Assembly: GCA_029747015.1 (NCBI GenBank)
Contig: JAKOGI010000002.1
Coordinates: 1,097,001 to 1,161,000 of the forward strand
Source: Carnegiea gigantea
Taxonomy: Eukaryota; Streptophyta; Magnoliopsida; Caryophyllales; Cactaceae
DNA length: 64,000 nt
Reading direction: 5' to 3'
Below are positions 10,918 through 46,500 of this stretch, in pieces. Each line of letters begins with the position of its first letter. The stretch's first letter is position 1. The notes beneath the pieces are model-generated. The model saw only the letters and a list, made by a program, of their open reading frames with translations, ran no database searches and was not told the origin of the DNA. The translations under genes and the position numbers were made by a program.

Positions 10918-12342
10918 TTAGATGCTAAGAATTTGACAACTAACCAATTCAGCAGACACCGCTCTCCTCGATGCAATAACTTTCCATCCACCAGTCGATG
11001 AGGAAGATGCAACAGAACTTCCGCTAGAACAGCTTCCATTTGACAGTTGATCAGATTCCCAAGGTTGCATAGATGCTTCTGGGGTCACTTGCAAAACTGC
11101 AATATCAGAATTGGTGTTTCTAATGATAACATGAAGCTTCCCAAGGAACGCGGCAAGCAGGTATGGAGATTCAGCATCAGTCTGATCATAAGTCATGGGA
11201 ACTTCTCCCGAAGCAACCTTCCACGAATCATCTTTGGGATCATATTTCTTAATTCTAGCACTATCCAATGAACCTGACAGATCCAGCGCATATAACTCAT
11301 CATCAACAACAGCACTCAATTTAGTCCCCGCCTGCTTCGCAGGCCAACCCTCACCCATACCAACCGGCATCTCAATCCATGAGTTTGTTTCTGGGTCATA
11401 TATCTCTCCACCAGCATCCACAAAGAAAGGCCAACAATACAAGCTCTGAGGTACATACAATTTATCTCTGTACGTTGTTAATCCTGTTGCAATGGGCTTG
11501 AGTAGGTCAGCTAGAAAACCAGTAGGCATGACTTGAGCCTTTGAGAATGGCATGCTAGGAACCTCAGACCATAGACCAGTCTCAGGATCAAACACTTCAG
11601 CAGACTGCAAGGGAGTTAACCCACCTCGATACCTACAAACCCCTCCAACAACATAGAGTTTGTTATTTATAACTCCTGTTTTACTAAATGCTCTACCGGT
11701 TAACATGGGACTCATTTCACTCCAAGTATTTGATATAGGATCATAACGCCAGACACAACTCAAAGCTGACGCTCTTGAGAGTCCTCCGAGCACATAAAGG
11801 CAGCCATTCACAGCCCCAATAGAACAGCCACAAAATGGCAATCTATCCAGTGCATCCCCTCTACCAAGCCACCCTTTTATGGCATCCGATATTTTCAGCC
11901 CTGCCCCCAGGAGATTCCACATTTGCAGAATTGCTAAGCCTTTTCGAGATGCATCATGGACAGAGTCATGAGGCATTGGTGGAAGCTTTTGCCATTTCCG
12001 AGAAACAGGATCCAGTGCATACCATAATAAGCTTTCTTCAACACAAGCTAATATGAAAACCCATTCTTCAGTAGTCTTGATTTCTCTCCGCAAACTATAG
12101 ATTTCAGGTGCAGATATGGCCTCTTTCCAACTCTGTGAAACTAATTTCAGCTTTAAATAGTGTATTCTGGGTACCCTGGCAAGAATCTGCAGAGATATCT
12201 CATCAGGAAGGCATGAAATTAATCGTGTGCTTTGCTCAAAGCAGCGTGTTATCTTTCGCTGCTTGCAGGTCTCACTCAGGGACCTCACAGAACGCTTATT
12301 GCTACAGTCACTAGAACCATTTGAGCTAAAGACAGCACCCAT
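10918..12342 (-). CDS. F-box/kelch-repeat protein (At1g22040 type)
   Basis: Single-exon coding region of 474 residues, close to the roughly 475 of Arabidopsis At1g22040. F-box proteins of this kind are the substrate-recognition part of SCF (SKP1-CUL1-F-box) ubiquitin ligases; the substrate is not known. The F-box is at residues about 42-78 (LISCLPDEISLQILARVP, then the LVSQSWK block). A kelch beta-propeller follows at about 100-400, with repeated YVLGGLSR, YVVGGV, EVFDPETGLW, EIYDPETNSW and KYDPKDDSW blades. The tail is serine-rich (about 420-445) and ends in a conserved VSCQI motif. I chose the ATG at 12342 because the reading frame upstream has no ATG and the family begins MGSV/MGAV. Its leader is probably split by a 2.1-kb intron. 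It is transcribed toward the ITPK gene. No breaks were seen. Confidence 0.95.
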   Translation of the reverse strand: MGAVFSSNGSSDCSNKRSVRSLSETCKQRKITRCFEQSTRLISCLPDEISLQILARVPRIHYLKLKLVSQSWKEAISAPEIYSLRREIKTTEEWVFILACVEESLLWYALDPVSRKWQKLPPMPHDSVHDASRKGLAILQMWNLLGAGLKISDAIKGWLGRGDALDRLPFCGCSIGAVNGCLYVLGGLSRASALSCVWRYDPISNTWSEMSPMLTGRAFSKTGVINNKLYVVGGVCRYRGGLTPLQSAEVFDPETGLWSEVPSMPFSKAQVMPTGFLADLLKPIATGLTTYRDKLYVPQSLYCWPFFVDAGGEIYDPETNSWIEMPVGMGEGWPAKQAGTKLSAVVDDELYALDLSGSLDSARIKKYDPKDDSWKVASGEVPMTYDQTDAESPYLLAAFLGKLHVIIRNTNSDIAVLQVTPEASMQPWESDQLSNGSCSSGSSVASSSSTGGWKVIASRRAVSAELVSCQILSI

Positions 12343-14690
12343 GAAGTCTACCACGTCACCTCATAGCCATAAAACGGAAAATAGAAGGCCTTTACCCTGA
12401 AAAAGATATCTTTCCATCTCATAAATTAATATAATTATGAATATATCTGGGGGAGGCATACAATTTGCAGCATATCATGTCCCATAAACTCAAGGATATT
12501 CAATTGAATGATCCAAGCTTGATAATATCCACCACCCCCCTCCTCAACAAGCCTGCTTCAGTTTAAGGAAATAAAAGCACTGCTTTAGGGCAAGACATAT
12601 GAGACTCATGTTGGTAAAAGTGATAGAGCCTCCACTACATACTCCGGCATAAAACCAAGTTGTATATGGGAGGAAAAATCGTCCTGTACAGCTCCATATT
12701 CTTTCACTGGAATGCTCAATGAACTAGACAAATGGTTCTCTTATTTGCTAACTCGGATGTCTTAGGTTTGGATTTCAGCTAGATCTTTTAGTTTGCCAAG
12801 AACACTTCAAGGGCAATATAAAGAGATGACATAGCACATCATCAAAATGTTTCTTGTATGACAGAATGTAAAGTGGTCCTATTTTTGGTAAAATACAGAT
12901 GGCCCAACAACAGACGATGGATAACAGAAGTGATGCACGCACTTCTGGAAAATAATCTAATGGCATAAAGGAAACAAAATGCCAGCTAGTAAGCCACAGA
13001 TTTGGGGACCAACAGTTCTGCTAATCCTGAGGCTGGAAGCTGTGCAACAATGGAGAAATAAGACATCTCTAACAAAATTAGAATAAGGAAAACTGCACAC
13101 AGTTACAGTAGGTGCTCACTCATTCACACTACAGGCATCAACATTGGCCTTGAGTCTTGACTTTTGCATATTAACTAATCTACTCTCACAACAATTCTAC
13201 TACAAGAGTATATGATGATTTTTCATTTATCAAAGCCTGGGTGTGGATGGCCTCTTAAACAAACTACACTAAAGGGGAAAACCAGAACACAGTAACCAAC
13301 ATTAGAAGACATCAGGTGCAACAAAGTCAAACTTTCCAAATTTTGTTTGCAATTTCACGAGAAAGCAAAATTGAAGAGGGGAAAAAAGAAAAGGAAAAAA
13401 ATAGGTTCAAGAATATTACCATATACTGAGCTATTTCCCCTTTTTTGGGGGGGGGGGGGGGCACTGGGCACAATAACAAGGCCTCCACCAACTCATACAA
13501 AAATAACTTTTTGGCCAACCAGAGCAAAAACATTGGGATAAAATGTAATTTGACCAAGATTAAACAAGGGGTTGCCCTGAGCCATTGTGTAATTGTGACA
13601 GGTTACCTTTTTCCAATTCTACTCACAATTTACAAACCCAAATATTCTACTTTTCTTTTATAAAGTTAGGCTTTTAGGGCAGACATCAGTTTGCAACATT
13701 TAATAATCAGAGCCTTAAGATAGATAGAGGGCACAGAATAATGAGGTAAAATACTCAGTAGTCAATGCCGCAAAATGTTTAAGAAAGACAACACAAGCAC
13801 ACAACTATGACCCTACAACTAAGTCGTATACTACCAGGCACAGAGTTAACCAGTTACTCCGAACTTTGCATAATTTTCAGACAAGAAAACTTGAGGAAAG
13901 GATCAAAAGGAATAGCACTAAGGAGGTTTATCATCAATTTGATACTACTCTGAATCAATGTCTAGATTTGGGAGTGACATTGAGGTTCATCTGAAATAAT
14001 AACTTGGTCACAGAAAGGAAGTTTGTTGCGCAAAAAATAGTTTTCTTGTGTTTACATTGGGTTTATCCAATGAGTGCTCTAGGGTCTATTTGACAACTTC
14101 AAACAATTATTCCAGCTAAGGAACTTCATAGGACAAAAAACTTATTTCCACACAAGATCAACATTGCTCCAAATCCAATAATTAAGTCTCCGAAATTTTA
14201 TCTTCCTTAACCCACTTTAGCGAAGCACTTCCCTAATTGACAGAGAATTTCCACCATAATAACCTCAGGAAATGGATAAATTTGTCGAGTAAGCACACAC
14301 AAAAAGGACCAATTTTTATAAAAAGGTTGGCGTTGAAAATTACTTGACAATCGACAGTTCATGAAAGAAGAAAACGAAAAGAAAAGATATCCGTATTCTC
14401 AGGGACAAAGAAAACAACAAAAAGCTCTAAGAATCAAATTATAGAAGACAACACTGATACACTACCAATCGATAAATTGAAAACGCAAAATTGAGAAAGA
14501 AATCAGTCGCAAACACAACACAACACACCTCGTTTAGCCTACTGCAGTTTCCGGCGAAGAAGAATTACATGCCCATTGATCTCATGGAGATTGAGAATGC
14601 AAATTCGATTGTGAACACTTGCGTTTAGAGAGAGAGAGAGAGAGAGAGAGGAAAGCTTAGGTAGGCAACGACGTATATGGCTGACCACCG
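12343..14690 (-). other. Probable 5' untranslated exons and leader intron of the F-box gene
   Basis: On the minus strand a GAG|GTGTGT donor at 14528 and a pyrimidine-rich TTTTTCAG|G acceptor at 12397 could remove a 2,132-base intron. That would join a first noncoding exon (about 14690-14529) to the coding exon, which begins at 12396 with 54 leader bases. The first exon carries an AG/CT microsatellite at 14627-14651. Nothing coding was recognised inside the intron; it holds a T/G homopolymer junction at 13441-13461. The splice sites are read by eye and the intron is an inference. Confidence 0.55.
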
Positions 14691-31500: not shown

Positions 31501-34500
31501 AAAGAAACTTAGAAGCAAGAAAGAACCTGGAAGTTACACACAAAATGCAGCTAATCACCAACTATCTCACTACAGTTGATCCCATTCTTACAGCAGTCAA
31601 CAAAAAATGGTCATAAAAATAAGAGGCCAAAAAGAAGAAATACTAAATTCAAAGTTCGAAGGGCCTTAATCAACTTGCTGAAGTGACAGCAACCACTGCA
31701 CAACCTACTAGAAGTTTATACAAGTTATCCTATAAAAGTTTGATTTTATTATGTCCATTCAATGCATGATAATGTTGTCAAGAGGTCCACTCTTTCAGAA
31801 TGGAATAATTATCAATCAAAAAACGCATAATGGCAACAGACATGCTACTATTCACGAGAATATCAAAATTGTCAGCAAAACTGCATGCAGGAGGGGAAAA
31901 AAACAAATAGAATGCCTGGAACCAAAACTCATCACTGAAATGGAAGATATACCAGATTGAGAAGAGTTGCAAGAATTTCAGGAGGTATATTTGGTGAAGA
32001 AAATGCCGTCTCCAGACTCCTCACCAACTGCCTTTGACTTGTCTCATTTAGTTGAGCCCAGCAACTGACAAAACCAGCAGCAAATAACTCCCTGCCCACA
32101 AAAGGCTGCAGATCCCAAAGATTAGAGAAATTAGATTGGGCGAATCTCTCGACAAGAATTAGTAATAGTACCTGCAACTGAGCGAGCCTAGCACAGGTTC
32201 GTAACGCTGGAGAAGGAGATTCTCTGAGCAGCTCAATACTAAAATGCCTCATCCATTCTGCCCAATCTTCTTTGGTGCTACGTTGAGAGGCCTCTCCAGC
32301 AGTGCGTAAGCGTCCATCATTTACCTACAATGACATCAACAACTTTAACGCTTTTAGTTGTAGAGCACTGGCTTATTGTAATTGTCTGCTCCAGCCTCAA
32401 AACCCTCTGCCCACAGTCTCATGAAAAGAGTCAACCAAGCTGGCATGCAGGACTGTAAAAGAGCCAAGCCTCAATGATGTAGGACGCTCTAAGAGCAATT
32501 CCTACACCGAGAAAATTCACACAAGAATTCTCAAATACTCAATATTTCAATTCATTCAAGTCCGACTCCCTAATGCATAATAGGCGGTTTAAATACTCAA
32601 TATTTCTCTATCCTTACCCTCCATGCACTCAGCCAAAGCTCCAGAGATGTTCCATGAGATAAGTGTTTGGCACAGAATGGGCTCAAGCCTATTGAGGTTA
32701 GGCTCCCCTTGGCTTGGCTGAGCTCGTTTACTTATTCTAGACCAAGTAGCCCTTACTCCACGGTTGTGGTAGACTTTGTTAACTTTGAGAACCATAAATT
32801 AATCCAAAAGCATATATTCGATCATCATTTCTGTTTCAAGTTCAGAATCATATTCTTTCAAGACCAAGGAATTCAATAGATTTCAAACCTAGTGGCGTAA
32901 AAGTTTGAACCCTAATGTATTAGATTTCAAGGTCTCTTTAACTAAATAAAATAAGATAAATAAAGAAGAAACCATGAATTTAACAGGTGAAAGATACTTG
33001 GATCATATTGGACTAAAACAAGATGTTCTACGAAAGTGTCCTGCATCTTTTGCACGATAGCAAACACTCAATGTATTTTATAATCTGCAATCGAATTGAA
33101 ACAGCCTCTGTGCACTTCTATTGTACATGTAAGACCCATGAGTCAGAGTTCGGACCAGCGCAGGCCCCATATGTCGTGGACCACCCCCCCCCCCAAAAAA
33201 AAAAACCCAAAAAAAGAAGAAGAAAAAAGGGAACAGACACCCGACACATAGCCACCCCTGCATTTGAGGCGATTAGAGCTATTGGTTTGGTCCGGTCTGT
33301 TTAAACAAACGAGAGAATACGGTTTCTTAAAGCATTTAGGCAATTGCGATGCTTAAAGTACCTGATGACTTCTAATGTCTCGGTGCAGATCAGATCCTTC
33401 ACTATAAGGGTCATATTCAACATCATTCAGAGGATCACTAATAACTTCCACAGGAAGACGTCTGCTTAACCGCTGAGCAGCTGTACTCCCAGAAATTAAA
33501 GGTTGACGCCGCCGGAAACGTCCTTCTATTTCTTCAAACTCCTTGTGCTGAAAATGTTGTGATTTTTGCAGATGGATCGTCATGAAACAACAATAATAAC
33601 AATATTAATCACAAAAATACAAATCTTATACACCAAAACAGTAAAGTACCCGCAGCCGATGCTTCAACAAAAGCTTATGAATGGAGGGGATGAAGATAGC
33701 AAAGTCCTCTCCAAGGGCATGAGCCAGACAACAAAGTGCATCAACAGCATCCTTCCGCAGTTCATCATTTTTCCTGTATGTAGACACCTAGTCAGTTAAA
33801 TCACTTACAACAAGACACACTGAGTCGCCTGAATTATGAACCACAAAGGGATGGGATTTTTGCATCTTTAATCTTTGGTGTGGTGGAAGCATGCTGAATG
33901 GTTTAGGATCATTCCACAAGATATTGGAACATCAGTCAATCTCATCAATGCTTATAATTCCTAAGAGGTTGGAATGTCAGCCAATGTGCAGCACACCAAG
34001 TTCATAACGAAAGCTTGCCCCGAGAAGCCAAGACCACTCACAACATGCAATGATTTCATCAAGGCCTTTATATTCAATAAGAAGTTAGAGAGCCATTGGC
34101 ACTTCGAACTGCAACTCTGATGGCTACACAACTTAATCAGTTAGAATACTTAATCTGCTAAGGTTAGGATCCCTAAATATTGCTCTCCAAAATGGGCATT
34201 TGGATCCTAATTACCGCCATGCCGCGGACTCCAACAAAAACAAAATGGTAACAACAAATATTACAACCTGCACTCCAGCCATTTCAAAGAATATCTCTTA
34301 CTTAATAAGACACATATATTACGATGTAAGATTGAAGTAAATGTGGTTATCTTACCCTAAATTTCACAAGATCTTTACTATTCAAGGAAAAATTGGTAGA
34401 AGAGTAGTACTGGAAGCAATGCAAATGCATTAGGTAAAATTGAAACACATGAACACAGAAAGTGGTCATTTTCTTGGAACATAAGTAATGATAATTGATA

Positions 34501-40500: not shown

Positions 40501-43500
40501 TCTTTATCAGACTGTTTTGAAAAAGATTATGAAAGCCTTAAAGAAAAGCTAGGTGAGGAAAAAGTTTCAACAATGTTGACATCGCACATAAAAGACTTAC
40601 AAAAGCCAAGGTATAGAAAACTGCCCATAGAAAGCAAAAGGCAAGTCAGATACAAGACCAGAGAAAGCATCTTAGTGAGACACATGATCCACAAGATCAG
40701 AAGACCTTTCTGTCATGAACTTCATATGCATCCCAAATAGTACTTTAGGGGTGGACAAAAGGTTGCTTCAGCCATAATTAAATGGTGTGAATTGCCTAAT
40801 TCAGATTTTGTGAGTCCCCCATTCCCCTTTATCATGAAAGGGGCATACTATCACCTGCATGTCACGTTCACAATGGTGAAATGAAGTATTAGGGTTTCAC
40901 CAGGCTCGGTACTGGTACTAAATTGTTAGGCATTGATATACAAATTAAATTGCATTAGCTGTGTCCCTCATAATATGCAAGTTGTATTATATCTTGGAAT
41001 TGGAGATGCATCCACCATTTACTTCATCAATGGCTCAACAAGGATTTTCAGGTTGCAAGGAGTAGCTAGGGACAACACCTTTTTCTGGACCTTCTAGTTT
41101 CCAAAGAAGCTTAGCTTTGTCTCTCTATCTGCTATAAATGGCCACAGGCCCACAGCCATGGTATATTATTGTGAAAATAATCAAAGAGAACAAGGAGCAA
41201 AGGACGACAGCGATCATGTCTTTCTTCTCTGTACAACATACGACATTAGGTTTTCAACCAACTATTTGTTACAGCATGCAAACCTGAAAATTATAAGCAA
41301 CAGGCAACACAACTAGCAGATAACAAGAACATGAAAACCATCAGGAAACATGAACGAGAGTTTACATCACCACAAAACACAAGGGAAAAAATATTTACTG
41401 TATGTAGCCAAAAGTAAGTGGGAGGTGAATACCTCCTCAATGAGACGACGTTTTCTTCCCCCAGTTCGGTTAGATCTAGCAGAAGAGAATTGGGTGGATG
41501 TGCCATTAAAGGAATTTGCCACTAATCTACAACAGCATAGCGCAGCATCTTTCCGTGTGACTGCATCCTCATCTTCCAAGTAAGAAATAACTGATTCTCT
41601 AGCAAACTCGAGTAGATCATGGCCCTAAAACAGGCATAAGGAGTAAAAACCACACTGAACCCTCAGGGAGAGGAAAAAGAAATCTCTCACCACAGGCTGG
41701 GTAAAAACCTGGAAGTTAAAACGCGCAAGAGTCTGCAAAGCAAGTTGGACAAGAGCAGGGCCAGCAGCATCTGAAACCGGCAAGGGTGCATTGACCACAT
41801 TTGCTCGAACTGTTGTAGCTGGCCGAGCCTGAAGATGATGAGATCTCGAAAGAACCGTGGAAATGGACTCACGCAACCGCTCTTGAATAGGAGGTAGCAG
41901 AGATGGAATGCTGGTACAATAGAAAAGCACAAGAATATGAGTCTAGATGAAGCTTTAACGCTGACAAGGCAACCAAATCTGCCTCCAATCACGCTCTCCC
42001 AAACTTTAAGCAATACCTGATGGAAATCTGCTCAAGTGCTTCTACTAACTGAAATGAAAGGCCAGCAGAGAACATTGCATCTAAAAGGCCGCGAACATGC
42101 TGCTCCATAGCCGGGCCCATTGCTTTTACAATGCTTCCAACACATGCCAAAGCCTCCACAGAAGGTCTTCCTCTCCGAGGAGCAATCTAGAGAAGACCAA
42201 GTATAAACCAATGTCAGCGTGGCAACCAAGCACAAGCACGTAAAAGGGAAATTGTAAGAGCAAATCCGTAAAACAGCATTGATCACGCACAGCATCACGC
42301 AAATGAGACATTATTGTCGGCAAATAGTTGTTAAGTTCCCCATCTAAGGCACCAGCCATCTCCCCTAGAGCAATGAAACCACTAGCTCGCTCAGCTGGTA
42401 TCTTCAAAACAGCAAGGATATGATCCATGCAAATCTGCGGAAAAACATAACAACATAAAAACTTAAGCAAGCATAAGTAGACAACAAATAGTTCCATTGA
42501 AATCCTACTTCAAACAAACTATACATGTCATAATAGTTCTGTGTGACCAACCTTCAAATAGTTGGTCACAAAACGATCACGCAGGAAATGAGCAATGCGA
42601 GGCAGCAATGATGTTATGCTAAGGCGAACGAGCCTATCGCGATGATCCAAATATCTGAAAACAATTTCTGCAACTTCCCTGTACCTAGACATCATAAACT
42701 CACCGGTGTTCCTGCAGGATTGGGAAAAAAGGGAACAGTAAATATTAGTCGCAACCCATTTCATGTGTTTCAAACTGCAATACTAGCCTCCTTCCCTTAA
42801 AGTAGAGTAACTATAAAGCAATTGTTCTTTCGTTTTTCATAAGGAACTTTTATATCACCGCTTCAATGCAAAGGAATGATCTAGATATAAGCATCCCACT
42901 AAGAAGCTATTACAATTTACAACACATCAAAAGGCTATCAACAGACTACTTCTAACACAAATGACAAAGTCCCCCCCCCCCCCCCAAAAAAAAACCACAT
43001 ATTCTAGAGCTAACTATTCTCAATGAGTCAAGAGACTTCCCCATGAAGCAGCTGGTTTTCAGAAAACAATATCCTTTGCAATGAATTGCATGCCCGAATC
43101 CGTATTCAAACCTTTCTTCAAGGTACGGAGAGATGGAGTAGTTAAGGACGACTTCCATTTCTTAGAATATGTGATGTAGGATGCTCTAAGAGCAATTCCT
43201 ACACCGAGAAACTCTCACACAAATTAGAGGACACTCACACATTTTTCTCAAAATTCAACTCAATTTCATTCAAGTCTGTCCCACGAATGCATAACAAAGA
43301 AGCTTAAATAGAGAAAAGACCTAAACCATTAAGGAAACAAATAAATAAGCTAATCAAGGAGATACTATCCACTAGCTAAAAAAGATTTTTTAAAAAAAAG
43401 ATAATATTCCTAAAAGATAAGCTACAAAGATAATAAAATATCAAAACTTCTCACATGCCAATATTAAGATATACTCATATCTTCTTATTTCTCCTTTATC

Positions 43501-46500
43501 CTTATCCTACATCATTCTCACCTGGTTGGAAAAAAACTCATCCTTGAGTTTTATATAGGGGCAGAACAAAGAAACCAAGCAAGAAACCAACTTCACTTCG
43601 TCTCACATATGAGAAAATCGAAATTTGTGCAGCTTCTCCCAAAAAAGTAGCAATTCAATTAGCGGACGTAGCTACTTGCCAAGTAGAAGTTCCTTAGGGA
43701 TAAATAAATCAACGTGCCCACTTGCCAGCCTCGACAGCTCCACATGCTTAAATTTTGGATACCAAGACCAAAATCTCTAGAATTAGGCACTGTCTTGCAC
43801 TCATATGCAGCCTTACGATACTCCTCATTCGCATTTTTGAATCCAGCACTGCCTTCCTCATTCAGACCCTCTTTAACTTCATTCTCCTTGATTTGTATAA
43901 TTTCATCTATAGCTGAAATAATTTGTTGAAGTGAAATATGAGATGCACATGTGTCCAATACCCTTGTACTCATAATTTGAGTGGTAGAGGAAATGTTACT
44001 ACTCATAGATTGACTCTGAGAGATGGAGTCAAGAAGTTCCAACAAGAGGTCATCCGTTTCAATAAGAGTACCAACAAGGATGGACTCTATATGTGCAAGC
44101 ATCATAGAAGAATGATAATCTTTAGTGGATGCTAAAAGATGATGGAAAATGTCCAAGACAAGAGCATCACATTCAAGATCTAACATAACATAAGATTTTA
44201 CTCGAACCATACACTCAAGTATGTGAAGCCTCTTATAGGAATGACTTGTCAGTAGTATCAGATTGGGCCAGAAAAGATGATACAATGAGTTGGAAAGCTC
44301 TCTTCATGAACTCATCTTTGAAAGGGGGATTCAGTGCTGTAATTCAAATGAGTTCAGAAAGACAAGAAGCGAGAAATATCTGAATATCAATGTTTGCATG
44401 ATTGAAAAACACTTCTGAGGTCAAAACTCCTTTTATGGGCACTAGGGCATCTTATATGGATGTCGGGGGGTTTTGGTGTACTTGAGCCAAAAGGCTTTCA
44501 AGTCTTCCAACAATTCAAGGAGATTATTTGAAGACAGAGAGGAAGTAAGCAATTCAGTCCCAACTTTGAATAGTTGAGTTGGAACATGTTGTTTCAATAA
44601 CCATGCTGGTCTTGGTAACACCATGACAATGTCATACATCAGCAAGCAACAATCTGAAGCACAAACAGCAACAATAACTGCAGCCCAAGAACAAGAATGG
44701 CACGGAGAGCAGCAATGAGAAGGGCAGAGTGACAAGTGACTACGGCAAACCACTTCTGGGAGATTTTCGGCCCCTCTGGTGATAACCCGAAGCAGCAATC
44801 CCCACAGTTCGCAGCACAAGTGGGATCACACATTCGGATTTCGCGAAATTGGAGCAACCAATTGAAGGTTGAATCAAAGCATTTTCTTTCAATTGGGATG
44901 GGGCTTTTGGTCGAAATTAAGTGAGCACCGGGCAGCCAGGACCGAAACCAATTTTGGATGATTTTAAGGAACCGACGATGAATTTTGGAGTCTAGGGTTT
45001 CGGGAATTCGGGAAATTCGCAAACTAGGGCATTCGAACTTGCGAATTTAGGGTTCTAGTGATCGGCTTGGTGGCGGCGGTGCCATGGCGAGGGCCGGCTG
45101 GAGGTTGGTGACCGAGGGGTGGTGATTGGTGGAGGCGGGTGCGCCTTTCGGTGCTAGTTCAAAGGACTTGGTTGCTGTCGTTAGGATTCCGCAATTTTTT
45201 GCGTGTGTTTGTGTTCTTTTTTTTTGTTGGCGGATTTAAGAAACAAAGGCAAGAATCAAAAAGAAAATTGGCAGTGATCGAAGAAGCTTTGATACCAATT
45301 TGATGTAGGACACTCTAAGAGCAATCCCTACACCAAGAAACTCACACACAAATTAGAGGACACTCACAAATATTTCTCAAAATTCAATTCAATTTCATTC
45401 AAGTCTGACTCGTTAGTGTATAACAAAGGAGCTTAAACAGAGAAAAGACCTAAAACTTTAAGGAAACAAATAGATAACCTAATCAAGGAGATATTATTCA
45501 CTAGCTACAAAAGATAAATGAAAAGATAATATTCCTAAAAGATAAACTACGAAGATAATAAAATATCAAAATACTTCACATATGACAATATTATAATATA
45601 CATATATCTTCTTATTTCTCCTTTATCCTTATCCTGCATCAATATGGCAGGCGCTACCTAAAAAACAGACTTAAGGTAATAGTTTGAAACTTTGAATCAT
45701 AGATCTCATAACCCAACAATGTCAAAAGCCAATGCAGTTGTTAAATTCATAGCAGAAAATTTGACAGACAAAAATACAGATTTGGCAATCTGACCAACCT
45801 TAGAAGCTCCCCAACAGCAAGTAAAGAACCATGTATACTGTGGACAGGAGCATTCCTACCCAGTCCTTCCTGTGTAGCCTCAAACATGCGGTAGTACCTG
45901 GAAAATGCAACAGCATTTTTTTACATCAACTTGACATAAATAGGTAAAAGTAATGCAAAAGATTATGGAAATAGAACCATTTTCACTAGGATTTGGAATA
46001 TCACAAGAACTTAGTTGATAAGCCTCAAATTCACAAACCTCCACTAAGAAAAAGATTATCCTTTTCTACAGAAATAAAATTCAGATTCCTTGTAACAACT
46101 CAGTTCTTTTTACACAACACAGATCTGTTTCCTCTAGAAAAAGGATCAAGTAGCTCTCATAATACAAGACCGCCTCCACTCACTCTGCTATGACAGTCAA
46201 ACATAAAGACAGCATGATATGAATTCCTGCAGTAAACAGCAAATAGGAACGAGTCTCATAATAACGTGGTCCTTTTTCACATTTCATCAGTTGATAAAAG
46301 CCCAAATCGCCATTGCTATTCAAAAAGAAGTACAGCAAAATCATTATATTTCAAAAGGCCAGCTCTACTTTGAAACAATATGATGAGCCTCATTTCCAAA
46401 GAAAAAAGGTAAAACCAAATTTTTAAGACATGGTGGACTCCCAATACTTCATTTCTCAACCGTTACAGAATCTCTCCCTTAGATCAGTATATAACACTGT

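Follow-up and report, generated by a model that had tools for sequence, protein, structure and literature searches.

A dead LTR retrotransposon in a TOR intron of saguaro belongs to a family carrying a captured PDS5 reading frame that was probably selected in its source elements

The capture of host genes by long terminal repeat (LTR) retrotransposons is documented for Bs1, for terminal-repeat retrotransposons in miniature (TRIM) and for Rider in the available portions of one paper, in which PDS5 has no occurrence (PMC13317346). Bs1 of maize contains pieces of an H+-ATPase gene and of two other genes in an expressed hybrid frame (available text of PMC13317346 and PMC4717578). In this work, a complete LTR element of 2470 bp was found on the minus strand, at 43172-45641, of a 64,000-nt window (the whole stretch of DNA that was analysed) from Carnegiea gigantea, the saguaro. 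It lies in an intron of a TOR gene and carries a broken piece of the cohesin-regulator gene PDS5. Like Bs1 as described in these two sources, it is an LTR element with exon-only host sequence. Unlike Bs1, the saguaro family carries the single gene PDS5, has many genomic copies, shows signs of selection at the codon level and has a sister family with another host gene. The gene-carrying TRIM elements, such as GmaRetroS15 of soybean, are also short non-autonomous LTR elements with exon-only cargo that are found in introns; those in the available part of PMC4717578 measure 1172-1449 bp, whereas the saguaro element has 2470 bp, LTRs of 341-343 bp and, in an open relative, a frame of 288 codons. 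In the KIU-carrying VANDAL a host domain, the captured Ulp1, is likewise conserved within a transposon (PMC13317346, in part), but this is a DNA transposon with another domain and another kind of mobility. As regards cohesin, the accessible text of PMC4378997 states that Ty1 insertion increases in yeast cohesin mutants and that separase binds the Ty1 integrase. There the host cohesin machinery acts in trans, whereas the saguaro element carries its own piece of a cohesin regulator, and the link between the two is one of analogy. Among the best 3-20 papers per search of the open-licence literature, none described PDS5 as the cargo of an LTR element, and no PDS5 sequence motif was found there. 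We consider it likely that the element, itself dead, comes from a non-autonomous LTR family that took up the 5' part of a spliced PDS5 RNA (about residues 1 to 240) between a leader and a 3' tail, spread with borrowed enzymes, and had its open reading frame (ORF) under selection in the source elements.

The first-pass annotation had described matched LTRs, a primer-binding site and a 5-bp target duplication in a TOR intron, together with an interior free of retroviral-type genes, and all of these were recovered. The 3' LTR in element orientation occupies 43172-43514 (minus strand, 343 bp) and the 5' LTR 45301-45641 (minus strand, 341 bp). The two are 89% identical over 301 of 338 aligned columns, with a Kimura two-parameter (K2P) distance of 0.119; their ends were read by eye and were placed 1-2 bases off in this computation. 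With three assumed substitution rates, the divergence would correspond to an insertion roughly 5 to 24 million years ago. The target-site duplication ATATG stands directly outside the LTR ends, at 43167-43171 on the left and at 45642-45646 on the right. The primer-binding site TGGTATCAAAGC (45286-45297, minus strand), of the initiator-methionine tRNA type, lies 3 nt inward from the 5' LTR and shares 11 of 12 bases with TGGTATCAGAGC, which we take to be the plant initiator-methionine primer site. It is followed on the same strand by a leader at 44625-45285, which is present in many but not all copies of the family at about 58-78% identity, and then by the broken remnant of the PDS5-derived ORF at 43870-44624, which runs downwards from a start codon at 44624 and represents the N-terminal HEAT region of PDS5. 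The 3' tail of the interior (43515-43869, minus strand) is common to other copies and partly to relatives carrying an RRM domain, and a similar peptide tail occurs in some Fagaceae-type PDS5 proteins. At its end, directly before the 3' LTR, a purine-rich, degenerate stretch (43515-43525, minus strand) may be what is left of a polypurine tract. The Pfam scans, which covered the three interior frames of at least 120 codons and the shorter PDS5 and tail pieces, brought up neither gag nor pol; their only matches were PDS5 and one that was insignificant. The features of a non-autonomous LTR retrotransposon are thus present, namely two LTRs, a target-site duplication, a primer site and an interior without gag/pol in the frames scanned. 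TRIM elements keep within about 1.5 kb and have short LTRs. Assignment to this class was considered and rejected, the element being too long at 2470 bp. CpG is strongly depleted in the PDS5 part (43870-44624), where its observed/expected ratio is 0.16, and is not so in the leader (44625-45300), where the ratio is 0.87.

The nature of the cargo follows from several matches. The longest open piece (43661-44303, minus strand) matches the PDS5 profile PF20168 at 1e-7 with 30.7 bits, and a second piece in another frame matches it at 3.1e-11 with 42.3 bits, the cut-off being 27 bits. A third piece further upstream gave no PDS5 match when scanned alone. Read together, the three pieces match PF20168 at 1.2e-23. 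The match covers positions 22-200 of a profile that has 1053 and nothing of its later part, and the cargo is not a full-length PDS5. The read-through letters also match the PDS5 chains 5frp (4.4e-8) and 5hdt (4.2e-7) in PDB by sequence, and the single open piece matched no PDS5 chain there. Compared with a relative that has an open frame, the window copy has its frame broken by 2 stops and 4 frame-shifting indels, in agreement with the earlier description of a broken PDS5 piece; a search without PDS5 similarity had been named as the result that would count against that description, and both Pfam and PDB returned such similarity. The AlphaFold model of the open relative P0004 has a mean predicted local distance difference test score of 82.6. 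Foldseek with this model gave four PDB matches below 1e-3, all of them Pds5 chains (5frp, 5hdt). This part of PDS5 presumably contacts WAPL or SCC1, as the titles of these two structures suggest.

The PDS5 piece entered the family without introns. A host PDS5 gene on contig C52 has five exons across the matching stretch, separated by GT-AG introns of 3541, 132, 761 and 95 bp whose ends were set by eye. They interrupt the protein after residues 33, 101, 161.7 and 204, and the exons put together give an open frame of 268 codons; the later part of PDS5 proteins is matched further along the locus. Two of these four positions are also occupied by introns in the host PDS5 gene on C291. The open relative of the element ORF crosses all four intron sites with no intron-sized gap; an intron comparison of this kind had been proposed in the first pass. 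Since the four host introns are missing from the element ORF, its source was a spliced RNA. C52 is taken here as a relative of the parent gene and not as the parent. The protein P0004 is 32% identical to C52, 33-37% to C291 and 27% to C1682, and by identity and tree no close parent was found among these three host PDS5 loci. Three loci of saguaro (L039, L040, L041) hold further PDS5-like exons; two of them belong to the PDS5 C/D type, and the other, on C1682, diverges more.

The genome searched comprises 1.135 Gb in 5575 contigs. Nine named Carnegiea gigantea proteins were compared with the loci read, a small part of this genome; four match at 99% or more, among them P0119 (203 residues at L019) and P0011 (159 residues at L037), both at 100%, and the other five have no match of this quality in these loci. 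Its ORF search gave 1236 candidates at first look, of which 40 were scored, and 38 PDS5-like copies, the window copy included, were read; they are not a random sample. LTR matches in the same direction were present on both sides in 32 of the 38, on the left only in two, on the right only in one and on neither side in three. The PDS5 stretch could have lain outside the element in related copies, which the first-pass annotation held to be decisive against its reading; it lies between LTRs in these 32. Duplicates (L004, L009, L016, L017, L022) were removed before the copy alignments and the LTR-flank counts, and L031, L035 and L036 were left out of one copy alignment for short coverage. Element spans range from about 1.9 to 2.8 kb, and K2P of 24 LTR pairs from 0.044 to 0.427, where a few of the highest values perhaps come from mismatched pairs. 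Among six loci picked for two LTR matches 2-3 kb apart, which are not a random sample either, four contained the ORF. Searches of proteins gave 9 matches with the ORF, 116 with the profile and 27 with a longer query. In a first tree, the 16 usable family proteins group with the window copy in a single clade (100/100), to the exclusion of 47 other PDS5 rows; 34 of the 50 family proteins and 47 of the 94 others had been too short to enter it. In a later tree, 11 named near-duplicate rows were dropped and two host rows added. The stem of the family is long in the two trees (0.87 and 0.85 changes per site), and the long copies P0005, P0008 and P0012 share the start codon at 44624. Beyond the frame, two of six upstream protein flanks (P0118, P0129) and three of six downstream flanks (P0014, P0077, P0113) beat all 300 shuffles in comparisons of the leader and the tail, respectively; one control flank failed. 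Very long open frames of up to 1093 amino acids were rejected, as they were not supported by stop-to-stop reading at eight loci of 3.4-3.5 kb each. In viral_contigs and genome_contigs, pattern matches were obtained but no relative of the ORF. The first pass had presented the TOR insertion as a specific case with a possible multi-copy family. The captured intron-less PDS5 piece in TOR stands, but that framing is too narrow, as this is one insertion of many and the ORF of the family was apparently selected, a point that the first pass had not foreseen.

The signs of selection come from the distribution of changes over codon positions. In a set of 34 aligned copies, from which copies with coverage below 950 bp were excluded, changes private to one copy are spread evenly over positions 1, 2 and 3 of codons 1-243 (166/175/153, p 0.48). 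Changes shared by at least two copies are skewed towards third positions (204/143/244, p 2e-6). This skew is clear in codons 41-200 (p 3e-5), whereas codons 1-40 (p 0.06) and 201-243 (p 0.37) are not significant alone. Where the frame extends into the tail, the shared changes number 53/44/47 (p 0.65), and the noncoding tail has 68/54/76 (p 0.16); neither is skewed in this way. In an earlier set of 31 copies, private changes numbered 149/160/139 versus 176/124/212 shared ones (heterogeneity p 1.4e-4), and the observed position excess was never reached in 5000 label shuffles within base and context classes. Distances amount to 0.223, 0.169 and 0.271 at the first, second and third positions and to 0.243 in the noncoding tail, which is near the third-position value. 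As the shared changes are skewed to third positions and the private ones are even, purifying selection at the protein level probably acted on the source elements, and their copies would decay neutrally after landing, which is what dead copies should do. Among the protein rows, the identity of the family stem to PDS5 is 0.58, 0.33 and 0.27 by thirds of conservation, the conserved sites being kept best. The median pairwise omega by the method of Nei and Gojobori (NG86) is 0.47, with 0.52 to 1.21 for the twelve closest pairs and medians of 0.56 for the closest and 0.40 for the farthest fifth.

The LTR lineage extends beyond the PDS5 carriers. With at most 2 mismatches allowed, the genome contains 209 instances of the LTR-primer junction pattern and none of the reversed control, and the exact 12-base primer site was found at 74 of the 100 junctions listed out of the 209; no such junction was found in viral_contigs. 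Ten junction relatives were hand-picked from the list and each read about 2.1 kb inward, and ten peptides from nine of them were scanned with Pfam. Retrotrans_gag was above the cut-off in three of the ten (L052, L058, L059), and Ty3_capsid in one of these three. An RRM domain was present in L055, L057 and L061, with open frames of up to 414 codons, and L057 matches PTB and hnRNP L in PDB; L053, L054 and L056 had no Pfam match. Judged by these domains, the LTR lineage includes one or more sister families that carry a different host gene. The RRM piece of these sister elements is polypyrimidine-tract-binding-protein-like and stands in the place of PDS5, and their leader and tail are related. By eye, L060 is similar to L057 and L053 to L058, and L054 reads like a reverse transcriptase. 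A locus on C37 (1203011-1212456) with LTR pairs 8.1 kb apart was tried as the autonomous partner and rejected, its longest frame having 180 codons and no look of gag/pol by eye. At G000:C1496:114822-116512 three LTR-primer junctions follow one another at intervals of 834 and 832 bp and may belong to very short elements arrayed in tandem.

We hypothesize that the family multiplied through reverse transcription and borrowed the enzymes for it from gag/pol relatives, which would be of the Ty3 type according to their gag. The skew of shared changes would reflect purifying selection in the source elements, in which a HEAT protein of 250-290 residues would be translated and would help its own element. 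Its most likely function would be docking on host cohesin or chromatin, as a bait for or a competitor of WAPL/SCC1 contacts, and the docking would act at integration or in silencing.

Several observations weigh against this proposal. No PDS5 ORF was present within about 2.1 kb inward in any of the ten sampled junction relatives, which means that the LTR lineage consists only in part of PDS5 carriers, and the gag-bearing relatives are probable helpers, recognized by their gag domain. Fifteen of 20 copies have no matching 5-bp duplication, some perhaps from ill-set ends. Wrong frames give NG86 omega of 0.60 (shifted by one) and 1.11, so that omega alone is unconvincing. Divergence within the family, measured in 16 protein rows from the family majority, barely tracks the conservation of PDS5 (rho 0.12, p 0.09, 87 of 2000 permutations as high). 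Moreover, 33 of the 34 aligned copies have a stop or a frame-shifting indel relative to the reference, which is the one open copy. This last count, together with the even spread of singletons over codon positions, is what would be seen if a PDS5 cDNA had been captured once and carried along passively, useless to the element, with a merely apparent constraint that stems from its origin in a host gene. According to the available part of PMC3726574, genes captured by LTR elements are more often neutral pseudogenes in rice and more often under purifying selection in sorghum, and it is the rice pattern that would fit such a passenger. Nevertheless, we regard a useless passenger as unlikely. The third-position excess lies in changes that separate copies mostly with two LTRs and a shared tail and thus arose after capture, and neither the tail extension nor the noncoding tail shows it.

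The modest agreement between ORF and tail distances (rho 0.36) also counts against the selected source lineage, and the shared-change signal could instead stem from subfamilies that drew repeatedly on a selected host gene. In such a scheme, the subfamilies would have taken PDS5 separately from one fast-evolving host paralogue, and the selection would be that of the host gene; the long stem and the lack of a close parent among the three loci are compatible with it. However, the window copy and the 16 family proteins fall into one fully supported clade, and the long copies share their start codon, which makes repeated capture distinctly improbable in our judgement. The first-pass annotation had also suggested that the family could produce small RNAs against its parent PDS5, and a reservoir of small RNAs damping the host PDS5 genes has a maize precedent in the accessible portion of PMC13317346. 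Exact runs of at least 21 nt are shared in 78% of 465 pairs of copies, and between 31 ORF copies and two host coding stretches the best 21-mer has three mismatches to C52 and one to C291, the window copy being among those within one base of C291. On the other hand, a close parent did not turn up, exact identity to host PDS5 extends over no more than 13 nt in C52 and 16 nt in C291, and the ORF of the relative has about 32-37% protein identity to these two genes. That suggestion was not supported, and the small-RNA role is very improbable. That the PDS5-like frames are host genes flanked by LTR elements by chance is scarcely credible, because although several are annotated as Carnegiea proteins (11 gene models contain the piece), six of the 11 also have unrelated domains (including peptidyl-tRNA hydrolase, Rab-GAP and DNA methylase), as would happen if pieces of elements were absorbed by neighbouring models, and 32 of the 38 copies have LTRs at both ends, with exact 5-bp duplications in five of the 20 copies with both ends set.

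Outside the cacti, the profile search named truncated PDS5 proteins from Quercus, Castanea, Lithocarpus and Fagus, together with unnamed environmental ones. Seven were compared with the tails of the RRM-carrying elements L057 and L061, which extend to the LTR start. P0039, P0053, P0062 and P0092 beat all 1000 shuffles with both tails, and P0041, P0054 and P0066, which end before the last motif, with neither. In the comparison with the broken tail of the window copy, P0039 was the sole one of the seven to beat all 500 shuffles. The four successful proteins are unnamed environmental ones; P0039, P0053 and P0062 cluster with named Fagaceae rows in the trees, from which P0092 is absent. All four are truncated PDS5 N-terminal proteins with a tail reading into the LTR start. 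Judged from proteins alone, the same LTR lineage may carry PDS5 in Fagaceae too. Placing the cactus and the Fagaceae-type PDS5 parts in one clade lowered the likelihood by 16.6 and 16.5 (approximately unbiased test, p-AU 0.040 and 0.032), and a single shared capture is weakly disfavoured, long branches being present. It is conceivable, and we suggest it only tentatively, that in a eudicot LTR lineage an N-terminal HEAT protein derived from PDS5 works as an accessory gene, which selection kept in the source elements of cacti and which is also present in Fagaceae, where Fagaceae-type PDS5 proteins share the 3' tail. If so, there was either one very old capture or PDS5 was taken twice by the same lineage.

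The TOR intron that holds the element is a GT-AG intron of 3087 bp at 42712-45798 on the minus strand. Its splice sites were set by eye, and the spliced exons flanking it match TOR2 chains in PDB at 3.3e-5 and 0.0017. The element has the same direction as the TOR gene; this copy is broken, and its sole effect is most likely a longer intron. A shortened LTR-like remnant of the same lineage lies elsewhere in the TOR region (32475-32627, plus strand) between near-matching flanks (CTCAA/CTCAG), which implies that the region was struck at least twice. Further away, an open frame of 480 codons at 10918-12360 encodes F-box and Kelch domains.

For the annotation of the saguaro genome, the family is a warning, as no fewer than six gene models that also have unrelated domains have absorbed the PDS5 piece. 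Gene pieces in plant LTR elements are often taken as accidents, and here a probable phase of selection can be separated from the phase after landing within one genome. A cohesin-regulator domain as cargo provides a testable link between chromosome cohesion and plant retrotransposition. If PDS5 was indeed taken twice, it would point to an advantage for these elements in handling host cohesin.

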